Assembly (NCBI GenBank): GCA_013153605.1
Contig: JAADED010000070.1
Location: 1-35,100, forward strand
Origin: Chlorobiota bacterium
GTDB lineage: Bacteria; Bacteroidota; Bacteroidia; Flavobacteriales; Flavobacteriaceae
Direction of reading: 5' to 3'
Length of the DNA stretch: 35,100 nt
Shown: piece by piece, positions 30,130 through 33,305 of the stretch
Layout: each line of letters begins with the position of its first letter
Position numbering within the stretch: position 1 is the first letter of the stretch
The notes under the pieces: model-generated
Seen by the model: the letters and a program-made list of their open reading frames with translations, nothing else
Told to the model about the DNA's origin: nothing
The model's database searches: none
Translations under genes and position numbers: made by a program

Positions 30130-31617
30130 TTAATCCCACACCAAATTCATGTACCACGACACGATATGGGCCCTCAATCCGTTGGAGCGCCGGTAGTGGT
30201 TATAATCCAAATGCATGCTCTTGATACCCAGTTTCCACAATTTCCACTTGGTAAAAATGTCGGTGTATTTGATCCCCGCCCCGAATTGATGAGCGTCGAA
30301 AGCCGAAAGGTCGTAGTCGGAGGTGTAATAGGTTTGGGTGGACAAATGGGTTTCGTAAGGGGCAAAGTAACGGGCCGCCGTTTGAGTATAAAAGCGGTAT
30401 GCGGGATACAGCGTAAACCGGTCGGATATTTTGAGAGGAATTTCCAGATTGAGGGTGTGCGACCGAATGCCCCAATCGTCGAAGTAATAGCGGTAATAGG
30501 TGCGCACCACCGCCGTTTCGTTCACGTAATAATGCAACCGCATACCCAAAGGCACCTTGAAACGGGTTCGCGGTAATTTTTCGTAATCATCGGCCAATTG
30601 GAACACTCCCGTATTGGAGGGGTCGGTATAGCGGGGAATATCTTCGGGCCGCCCGATGTAGTAGTTGGGACGGTCGGCAAAATAAACCCGTTGCATGGGA
30701 TTGGCCAGCCACCCGGTCTGATAGGTAATGTCGGTCATGAGCGACATTTGAGCTCTGGGACTCAATACTTGCGAAAAACTCAGGCTCAACACGTAGGTAT
30801 TGCGCCGTTTGTCGTCGATCAACCCGGTGCTGACGGGTTTCCACGTGGGTCCGTTGATTTTGTCGGTGGGATTGCCCTGTTGGTCCAAAATGGGTACGCC
30901 TTGGAAGAAATCGGCATTGAGGTTGCCTCCGGTTTCGAACCATGTTTTGATTTCGGTGGGATATTCGGGTCGCCATTTGTCCAAAAATATTTGGGCACCC
31001 ACCGTGATTTCCGAATTTTTTTGGTTGAATTGCGAAGTGAAGGAGGCGTTCATTCCTTTGGAAAAATAATCGAATTCGTTGGCAATGCTGATGCCGGCGC
31101 TGTAGATTTTGTTGCGGTCGGCCGAGTAGTGGCTGTACCCGGCGTTGACGTTCACCCACACGTCTTTGCGCGAAGCGCCGGACGAAGCCACCCAAGGCGA
31201 CCCGGTGACGGGCACTCGGTTTTCGTCGTCATCGCGGCGGGCGGGACGATCGTCGTCGTCATCCTCTTCGTCATCGTCATCATCTTCCTCTTCCCCGCGC
31301 GAAGCGCCGGAAAAAGGGTTGAGATTGCTCGAAGATGCCGAGGTATAACCCGAAATGGTAAGGTCCACGTTGAGCACCCCGTCCTCTTTGACGGGAATGT
31401 TCAGTTGGATGTTTTGGGCCACGTCGGTAAGTTGTTCGGTTCCGATTCCGCCCGTCACGGCCGCATGGGGCCCGTCCTGGCCGTACACGCTGAGAATCCA
31501 ATTCACTTCCGTATTGTCGAGGGCCCGTTTTTTAAACACGCCGCCGTCCTGAGCAAACAGGGCGGTGATGGCTGTACTCCATCCCAATCCCACGAGAAGA
31601 TATATCAGTCGCTTCAT
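30130..31617 (-). CDS. DUF3570 outer-membrane protein with Asp/Glu tract
   Basis: The 495 residues have a signal peptide (to about FAQ, 23) and many amphipathic strands, predicting a large outer-membrane barrel of the DUF3570 family, whose function is unknown. The early segment 'LTISGYTSASSSNLNPFSGA' is family-typical. Residues 109-123 are all Asp or Glu, followed by a second acidic run (129-132). Two SGAS motifs flank this region (103-106 and 146-149) and resemble the S/T-G-A-S/T sites modified by ApbE. The gene lies 14 nt after a DUF4266 lipoprotein, and both lie downstream of apbE. A link to flavin attachment or extracytoplasmic redox work is inference. Confidence 0.87.
   Translation of the reverse strand: MKRLIYLLVGLGWSTAITALFAQDGGVFKKRALDNTEVNWILSVYGQDGPHAAVTGGIGTEQLTDVAQNIQLNIPVKEDGVLNVDLTISGYTSASSSNLNPFSGASRGEEEDDDDDEEDDDDDRPARRDDDENRVPVTGSPWVASSGASRKDVWVNVNAGYSHYSADRNKIYSAGISIANEFDYFSKGMNASFTSQFNQKNSEITVGAQIFLDKWRPEYPTEIKTWFETGGNLNADFFQGVPILDQQGNPTDKINGPTWKPVSTGLIDDKRRNTYVLSLSFSQVLSPRAQMSLMTDITYQTGWLANPMQRVYFADRPNYYIGRPEDIPRYTDPSNTGVFQLADDYEKLPRTRFKVPLGMRLHYYVNETAVVRTYYRYYFDDWGIRSHTLNLEIPLKISDRFTLYPAYRFYTQTAARYFAPYETHLSTQTYYTSDYDLSAFDAHQFGAGIKYTDIFTKWKLWKLGIKSMHLDYNHYRRSNGLRAHIVSWYMNLVWD
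31168..31311 (-). repeat. In-frame direct repeat flanking a GAY/GAR triplet tract in the DUF3570 gene
   Basis: The 15-mer GCGCGAAGCGCCGGA (plus-strand reading) occurs perfectly at 31168-31182 and 31297-31311, 129 nt (43 codons) apart and in frame. Between them, 31249-31293 is a run of Asp/Glu codons (GTC, ATC, TTC, CTC triplets on the plus strand), a slippage-prone microsatellite. Confidence 0.8.
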
Positions 31618-31631
31618 TTGTTCCTTACTTT

Positions 31632-31868
31632 TTAGTTACAACCGCATCCGCCTCCCGATTTGCCGCCGTTGGCACCCGAAGCCCCTTCGCGATATACCTG
31701 GAAGGTGGTAACGAATTTTTTCACCTTCAGGGGGCGCAATTCCATGTCGGGGTCGTTGAGGTTCACCTGATTGTAGGGCTTGACCACCGTACAGGAGGAG
31801 AGCCATGCGGCCGCAAATCCCGTCAACACGAGAAGACGAAAAAATTTTTTTCCTTTCCCTTTATTCAT
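31632..31868 (-). CDS. DUF4266 small lipoprotein with Gly/Cys tail
   Basis: The 78 residues start at ATG 31868; the longer frame overlaps apbE too far. A hydrophobic N-terminus ends in the lipobox LSSC (C26), so the mature protein is a membrane-anchored peptide of about 53 residues. 'NLNDPDMELRPL' and the C-terminal SGGGCGCN are the DUF4266 hallmarks. The two closing Cys could bind metal or form a disulfide. The ATG overlaps the apbE stop region by 8 nt, so the operon is tightly coupled. Family function is unknown; co-occurrence with DUF3570 and ApbE is a pattern I recall from Bacteroidota and other Gram-negatives. Confidence 0.88.
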   Translation of the reverse strand: MNKGKGKKFFRLLVLTGFAAAWLSSCTVVKPYNQVNLNDPDMELRPLKVKKFVTTFQVYREGASGANGGKSGGGCGCN

Positions 31869-32862
31869 TCTTATCGATTTTGTCGGTTTGTATGGAAATA
31901 CCCGCCGAGGTGTGCACTTTGCCTTCCTCGTCCACAATGACGGCTTCGATTCCCGGCAATTGGTTCACGCGATCGATTCCCGCCTCGATTCCCATCACGA
32001 ATACGGCGGTGGCCAAGGCGTCGGCCAATTCCGCCGTGGGTGCAAAGACGGTAACGCTCACCGTACCCGTCACGGGCCACCCGGTTTTGGGGTTGATAAT
32101 GTGGGCATAACGCACGCCGTCGAACATGACGTATTTTTCGTAATCTCCCGAAGTGGCCACTGCGCCGTCGCGCATAGGGACGGTAGCGAAAGCCGTTTTT
32201 TTGTTGAAAGGGTTTACGATGGCCACGGTCCAAGGGCGGCCGTCGGGGGTGGTTCCCCATACGTTCATGTCGCCCGAGGCGTTGATAATCCCTCCTTTGA
32301 CGCCGCGGGAAATCAGCAATTGCTTGGCCTTGTCGGCGGCATATCCTTTTCCAATCCCGCCGAAGCCGATTTTCATACCTTTATGTTTGAGAAACACCGT
32401 TTTGCGAACCGAGTCCAACACCACGTTTTCATATCCCACCAAGCGGACGGATCGCGCCACCTCTTCGGGCGAAGGCTTGGTTTTCATCGACCCGTCGAAC
32501 CGCCAGATTTTGTCCATGGATGCAAAAGTGATGTCGAAAGCGCCGTCGGTGATGCGGGAAATAGCCAACGAGCGGGCGATGAGGGAGAACAGTTCGTCGC
32601 TCACCTTGACGGGGCGTATGCCCGCCATGCGATTGATGCGGGAGGTCTCGGAATCGGGATCCCAGGACGATATGAGTTTTTCGATCCGTTTGATTTCATT
32701 TACGGCGGCATCGATATGGGCTTGCGCCGAGAGGCTGTCGTCGTCCGTCACCATGATTTCAAACGCACTCCCCATCAACAGGAGACGACGGGTGAACAGG
32801 CGATCCTGGGCCTCCGCGCTCCCCATCGCCAAAAAAAGCAAAAGGAGGTAAACAACCCTCAT
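31861..32862 (-). CDS. apbE: FAD:protein FMN transferase
   Basis: ApbE hydrolyses FAD and attaches FMN covalently, through a phosphoester, to Thr or Ser of target proteins in the periplasm. The 333 residues have a signal peptide ending near AEAQ without a lipobox Cys. Family motifs follow: 'LISSWDPDSETSRINRMAG', 'GAFDITFASMDKIW', 'IGFGGIGKGYAADKAKQLL', 'INASGDMNVWG', 'ATSGDYEKY' and 'HIINPKTGWPV', which together hold FAD and Mg. It sits between a thioredoxin-like gene (ATGA overlap) and the DUF4266 gene (8 nt overlap). No Nqr, Rnf or FMN-binding-domain target is in the window, which makes the DUF3570 neighbour the nearest candidate. Confidence 0.96.
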   Translation of the reverse strand: MRVVYLLLLFLAMGSAEAQDRLFTRRLLLMGSAFEIMVTDDDSLSAQAHIDAAVNEIKRIEKLISSWDPDSETSRINRMAGIRPVKVSDELFSLIARSLAISRITDGAFDITFASMDKIWRFDGSMKTKPSPEEVARSVRLVGYENVVLDSVRKTVFLKHKGMKIGFGGIGKGYAADKAKQLLISRGVKGGIINASGDMNVWGTTPDGRPWTVAIVNPFNKKTAFATVPMRDGAVATSGDYEKYVMFDGVRYAHIINPKTGWPVTGTVSVTVFAPTAELADALATAVFVMGIEAGIDRVNQLPGIEAVIVDEEGKVHTSAGISIQTDKIDKNE

Positions 32863-33305
32863 AAGGAATCGAAATACTTGATATAATCGGCCGGGGTTTT
32901 GTCCTTATCGTATCCCGTGGTGCCCAACACCTTGCCGTCGGGTGACAATACCACGATCAGGGGAAAGTATCCTTGAGGATTGTATTTCTCGGCCAATGCG
33001 TTGTTATGGGCCCGTTGGGCGGGCGGAAGTTGATTCTTCTTTTTTCGAGGAAAATCGGCACGCACCATTACGTAATGTTCCTTGGCATGTGCAATGAAGT
33101 CGGGCGAAGTCCAAATATATTTTTCCAATTTGATACACGGTACGCACCAATCCGAACCCGAAAATACGAGAATGATTTTCTTATTTTCGGCTTGAGCGAT
33201 GCGGTGGGCTTCATCCATGTTATACACCCAATCCTGGGCTTGCATTTGCCATACTCCCGCCAAAAAAAGCACAAACACCAGTTTCTTCATCTTTATCGAT
33301 TTCAT
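32859..33305 (-). CDS. Exported thioredoxin-family protein
   Basis: The 148 residues begin with a signal peptide (MKKLVFVLFLAGVWQMQAQ). Two ATGs are possible, 33305 and 33290; I list the longer frame. A thioredoxin fold follows: 'KIILVFSGSDWCVPCIKLEK' with the redox pair C54/C57, then 'FPLIVVLSPDGKVLG' containing the cis-Pro. It resembles the short thioredoxin-like proteins that reduce extracytoplasmic disulfides. It heads the operon with apbE, DUF4266 and DUF3570. The closing Cys pair of the DUF4266 lipoprotein would be an obvious but unproven substrate. The promoter is unclear; GATATTTC upstream is a poor -7 match. Confidence 0.9.
   Translation of the reverse strand: MKSIKMKKLVFVLFLAGVWQMQAQDWVYNMDEAHRIAQAENKKIILVFSGSDWCVPCIKLEKYIWTSPDFIAHAKEHYVMVRADFPRKKKNQLPPAQRAHNNALAEKYNPQGYFPLIVVLSPDGKVLGTTGYDKDKTPADYIKYFDSL

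Follow-up and report, generated by a model that had tools for sequence, protein, structure and literature searches.

The operon at positions 30130–33305 of the window (the whole 35,100-nucleotide stretch of DNA analysed here) raises the question of whether its four genes encode an extracytosolic flavin redox system and, if so, which residues would carry the flavin. An ORF check placed all four genes on the minus strand, and the ORF positions and Pfam matches bear out the original prediction in this respect (Table 1). The genes had been described as overlapping, which is true of the start and stop codons of the successive Trx-like, ApbE and DUF4266 genes (the DUF4266 start ATG at 31868 overlaps the ApbE stop), but the DUF3570 gene is set off from DUF4266 by a gap of 14 nt. 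The gene order Trx–ApbE–DUF4266–DUF3570 is shared by 76 of 80 named relatives when loci with an extra Trx or DUF3570 copy are included, these being the best 80 of 579 confirmed matches and weighted to near relatives. We note that the Trx-like domain is fused in frame to ApbE at one locus (L050:3003–4433), and we count this for the flavin electron-transfer reading set out below. Several DUF3570 genes lie close together and carry extra SGAS motifs in the Chlorobi-like genomes L055–L059, which have up to 9 DUF3570 matches per genome, with some genes matching in two pieces.

Table 1. Positions in the window of the operon genes and of the motifs and candidate sites in their products.
Feature	Position	Strand	Description or evidence
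Trx-like gene	32859..33305	minus	Exported DsbH/Thioredoxin_7-like protein, 148 aa; Pfam PF13899 2.2e-13
Trx-like active site WCVPC (C54 and C57); CVPC redox motif, residues 54–57	33135..33146	minus	Sequence
ApbE, FAD:protein FMN transferase	31861..32862	minus	333 aa; Pfam PF02424 7.6e-89
DUF4266 lipoprotein	31632..31868	minus	78 aa, lipobox C26, Gly-rich tail; Pfam PF14086 1.2e-17
DUF4266 C-terminal CGCN	31635..31646	minus	Sequence end ...GGGCGCN
DUF3570 outer-membrane beta-barrel	30130..31617	minus	495 aa; Pfam PF12094 2.7e-43
Candidate site 1, T92-S93-A94-S95, loop L2	31333..31344	minus	SAS in 110/110
Extra SGAS 103–106, lineage-specific	31300..31311	minus	Extra GAS between sites 1 and 2 in 68/110
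Acid-rich run, residues 109–132, loop L2	31222..31293	minus	Varies between relatives; low model confidence
Candidate site 2, S146-G-A-S149, loop L2	31171..31182	minus	S149 invariant in 30/30

A DUF3570/ApbE/Trx/DUF4266 cluster has already been described by Meheust et al. 2021 together with the DUF4266 CxC motif, for which redox cycling was suggested (PMC8238504), and the four genes are a further copy of this published DUF3570/ApbE flavinylated barrel system. In C. luteolum, the cognate ApbE flavinylates the DUF3570 protein on serines of two SGAS motifs, and the modification is abolished only when both serines are replaced (PMC8238504). The original prediction, in which ApbE acts on the barrel and the Trx-like protein and CGC lipoprotein are thiol partners, matches this account but had been presented as open, and is mostly a rediscovery. 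No other account of DUF3570/DUF4266 was found in the open full-text literature, though later work may exist, and the section of a later structural survey covered here does not show DUF3570 (PMC11334425). The core interpretation is correct but published, and what is new is a corrected map of the sites, operons free of the canonical motif, a predicted topology, and the co-occurrence of DUF4266 with DUF3570.

The ApbE protein retains the catalytic Ser/His/Asp residues (S238, H254 and D281), its TSG, AHI and ADA motifs align to solved FMN transferases (7esa, 2e-52), and it has a signal peptide without a lipobox. The Trx-like protein matches NCBIfam DsbH at 5.7e-25, which is below the cut-off, and PDB 2ju5, ‘Thioredoxin Disulfide Isomerase’, at 1.6e-15; WCxPC is present in most members of its family. 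The lipobox of the DUF4266 protein, LSSC, ends at C26. This lipoprotein had been said to end in CGC, and the CGC is indeed in the tail but the very end is CGCN, with GCGCN terminating 78/78 DUF4266 proteins among the named relatives (the best 80 of 579 matches). In a sample of 296 genomes of the phylum, DUF3570 is found in 86 and DUF4266 in 83, with no genome having DUF4266 without DUF3570, and the partnership is near-obligate. DUF4266 was also considered as a target of ApbE and rejected, as its SGAN is without an acceptor serine.

The DUF3570 barrel contains two [S/T]GA[S/T] motifs, at residues 103–106 and 146–149 and with Asn at −3 of the first, exactly as had been reported for it, and when the residues of the barrel are shuffled the mean is 0.05 motifs with at least two in 0.1% of shuffles. 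However, the first of these (NPFSGAS) is not supported as the key site: in the larger set of proteins the extra GAS is absent from 42 of 110 relatives, and of the two motifs only the one at 146–149 occupies a position that is conserved throughout the Bacteroidota set. Conservation is found instead at S93-A94-S95 and S149, which are invariant in an alignment of 30 Bacteroidota proteins, and site 1 reads TSAS, SSAS or ASAS throughout the 110 proteins (it should be noted that a regular expression missed site 2 in 13 proteins of this set, most of which read SSAS-like in linkers). We also compared the barrel with the homologue L160, which we tentatively take to be the protein of C. luteolum DSM 273, with which its gene order agrees. 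An hhalign comparison (A1 vs A2) aligned TSAS 92–95 with SGAS 119–122 of L160 (probability 99.7%, E 2e-25), and by this alignment S95 corresponds to one of the serines at which flavinylation was tested in the C. luteolum-type protein. Judged by sequence, the family-wide candidate serines are S95, in a TSAS overlooked in the original prediction, and S149, rather than that of the first SGAS. A link between the acid-rich run and the extra SGAS was considered and rejected, the raw counts being strong but having no independent support on the tree.

It had been proposed that SGAS should be conserved in the DUF3570 proteins found next to apbE, and taken literally this fails: in 17 SSAS-type operons the DUF3570 protein is without a canonical [S/T]GA[S/T], yet ApbE and DUF4266 are present in every one (17/17). 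The relaxed pattern [STA][GS][AP]S is found next to apbE throughout at site 1, and the difference between G and another residue at the second place of site 2 is accounted for by one change on the tree. An ApbE motif was looked for in the Trx and DUF4266 proteins of the SSAS-class operons, and none has it. In a Klebsiella enzyme, loss of the motif Asp has a minor effect and a Gly to Ala change leaves about half of flavinylation (PMC12052999), and since ApbE partly tolerates such substitutions, [STA]SAS could by analogy serve as a flavinylation site. A literature search for precedents of SSAT-type motifs gave nothing that we adopted. Several ApbE residues separate the SGAS from the SSAS operons, but these follow one clade split and prove nothing. 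We note that at L047, L070 and L071 the TSG of other ApbE proteins is replaced by TAG, together with barrel sites that read ASAS and SSPS/STPS, which is possibly a joint decay of enzyme and motif.

The AF2 model of the window's DUF3570 protein (mean pLDDT 82.5) has an N-terminal helix at residues 2–20 and 16 strands counted from DSSP, as does that of L160 in strand number (pLDDT 82.2), and the top Foldseek matches of the window's barrel are outer-membrane barrels, the best being FadL, OccK and OmpG; by sequence, no solved DUF3570 homologue was convincing. The prediction thus has the N-terminal signal, even strand number, and both termini on one side that are expected of an outer-membrane barrel. 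All three candidate serines of the window's protein lie in the loop at 93–152 between strands 3 and 4, which is modelled with low confidence, while L160 has its sites in loop 1 and where strand 3 ends, and in the models of both proteins all sites are opposite both termini. In outer-membrane proteins the barrel end opposite the termini usually faces the outside, and by this rule the flavin sites are predicted to be at the extracellular end. In the window's group, 27% of outer-half positions (56/211) are at least 90% conserved compared with 8% of inner-half positions (11/141), and this greater conservation of the outer half is unusual for such barrels; the Chlorobi set showed no such bias (p = 0.9).

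We consider it somewhat more probable than not that the operon encodes a DUF3570-type extracytosolic flavin electron-transfer system, and infer the flavinylation of the window's barrel, the thiol-to-flavin step, the direction of the electrons, the extracellular placement and the acceptor as follows. Going by its signal peptide, ApbE is a soluble enzyme of the periplasm; it would put FMN on the serines of unassembled DUF3570, most likely S149 (SGAS) and S95 (TSAS) and perhaps also S106, and a periplasmic ApbE is compatible with extracellular flavins only if flavinylation precedes insertion. The flavinylated protein would then fold into the 16-stranded barrel, whose predicted outward-facing end would hold the flavins in loop L2. 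DUF4266 would have its lipid anchor in the inner leaflet of that membrane, and its flexible Gly-rich CGCN tail could act as a swinging dithiol, accepting electrons from the Trx-like protein (CVPC) and handing them on to the flavins of the barrel. These in turn would reduce an acceptor that is either outside or at the outer membrane itself, with a metal ion as our first guess. A bolder version, which we offer tentatively, is that electrons cross the outer membrane through a cytochrome-free conduit made of DUF4266 and DUF3570, in which the lipid-anchored, Gly-rich CGC arm enters the barrel from the periplasm and reduces FMN on the extracellular loops, and that non-canonical [STA]-S-[AP]-S sites are flavinylated across a large part of the Bacteroidota.

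No acceptor gene was found in the window, and the neighbours of the operon at other loci vary. CzcA/CusA-type RND pump genes are within about 6 kb of the operon in 14 loci (L036, L037, L041, L042, L044, L049, L067, L068, L069, L071, L078, L127, L146 and L150), often accompanied by CusRS-like two-component genes, which in Flavobacterium are downstream of the operon, and VIT1 is near the operon in 5 loci. A Rieske-like lipoprotein gene is just upstream of the Trx gene at L037, L039, L048, L066, L069, L071 and L116 (part of the cluster ligands are apparently missing from the L071 protein), and the word Rieske is absent from the text of Meheust et al. 2021 (PMC8238504). A FecI/FecR-like sigma/anti-sigma pair and a TonB-receptor-like gene are divergently upstream of the operon in about 13 loci, which include L081, L083, L085, L091 and L094 and come mostly from Flavobacteriaceae. 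As raw counts, the RND metal pumps, CusRS-like genes, VIT1 and Rieske lipoprotein give a hint of metals, and they bear on an alternative reading in which the CGC tail and acid-rich loop bind Cu, Fe or another metal whose oxidation state is changed by the flavins at the surface for uptake or detoxification. We think this unlikely: the pump, CusRS-like and VIT1 genes found near the operon at other loci, and VIT1 in 25 DUF3570 clusters (PMC8238504), are in its favour, but all three are absent from the neighbourhood of the window's operon, the neighbour-gene numbers are raw counts, and many relatives have no acid run, whose association with the extra SGAS is not independent of phylogeny.

The source of the electrons is a weakness of the flavin electron-transfer reading. 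No DsbD above the cut-off was found in the window or in its 1.6 Mb genome, which is 96% complete, and the only PF02683 match in this genome is a 260-aa CcdA-like protein. The electrons could instead originate in disulfide formation, with the operon encoding a cell-envelope thiol oxidase which follows an Erv/QSOX-like logic: the Trx-like protein would be oxidised and its electrons passed via DUF4266 and the flavins to an outside acceptor, the purpose being disulfides and not acceptor reduction. The lack of a detected DsbD to feed a reductive pathway would suit this arrangement, as would the resemblance of the CXC shuttle and flavin to Erv2, which has a C-terminal CXC shuttle near a flavin (PMC4019985). 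We nevertheless regard it as decidedly improbable, as the closest family to the Trx-like protein is DsbH, a disulfide reductase by its NCBIfam name, and many clusters of this kind include DsbD (PMC8238504).

The original prediction had found no classic ApbE target nearby. Genome-wide, FMN_bind, NQR2/RnfD and DUF2271 have no match in the 96%-complete genome and DUF3570 is the only one present of the four substrate families searched, which strengthens the case for the barrel as the target. The genome has two ApbE genes, the second of which encodes a lipoprotein (L074:6374–7390; G000:C20). It is very improbable that ApbE acts on another protein in this lineage and leaves the barrel unflavinylated, as although this second ApbE has no known substrate and SSAS-type DUF3570 proteins have no canonical motif, the window's barrel has two canonical SGAS motifs and shares its operon with an ApbE, and the genome contains none of the other substrate families searched.

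The DUF3570 system is widespread in the phylum (86/296 sampled genomes), and should the predicted topology hold, surface flavins fed by thiol exchange may be displayed by bacteria that have no outer-membrane cytochromes. For mutagenesis the alignment points to S95 and S149, and the SSAS-type operons offer a direct test of how the ApbE motif is defined.

The closest known systems are the ‘DsbD systems’, with which the window has in common the same four families, their gene association, the SGAS motifs of the barrel and the CXC end of DUF4266 (PMC8238504). The clusters with DsbD contain DUF3570 (227), DUF4266 (221) and Trx (183), and 316 clusters of this kind are without DsbD (PMC8238504), which is thus optional there; no DsbD was found in the window's genome. 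The window also differs in having three candidate serines in one loop rather than two tested SGAS motifs, TSAS at site 1, and a long acid-rich run between the sites. L160 has a homologous barrel with the same modelled strand count, and one tested site that aligns with S95, whereas its other SGAS is at residues 75–78 in loop L1, S149 is without a counterpart there, and the gene order is Trx–DUF4266–DUF3570–ApbE–long Trx protein. The Erv2/QSOX thiol oxidases offer a working likeness with a thiol donor protein, a flavin and, in Erv2, a C-terminal CXC shuttle (PMC4019985). They have no barrel, and ApbE plays no part in attaching their FAD; we draw this as an analogy with no claim of sequence relationship. 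The porin–cytochrome conduits of the MtrCAB type carry electrons through an outer-membrane barrel, and it is this idea that the window's operon, which is without a cytochrome gene, would have in common with them.
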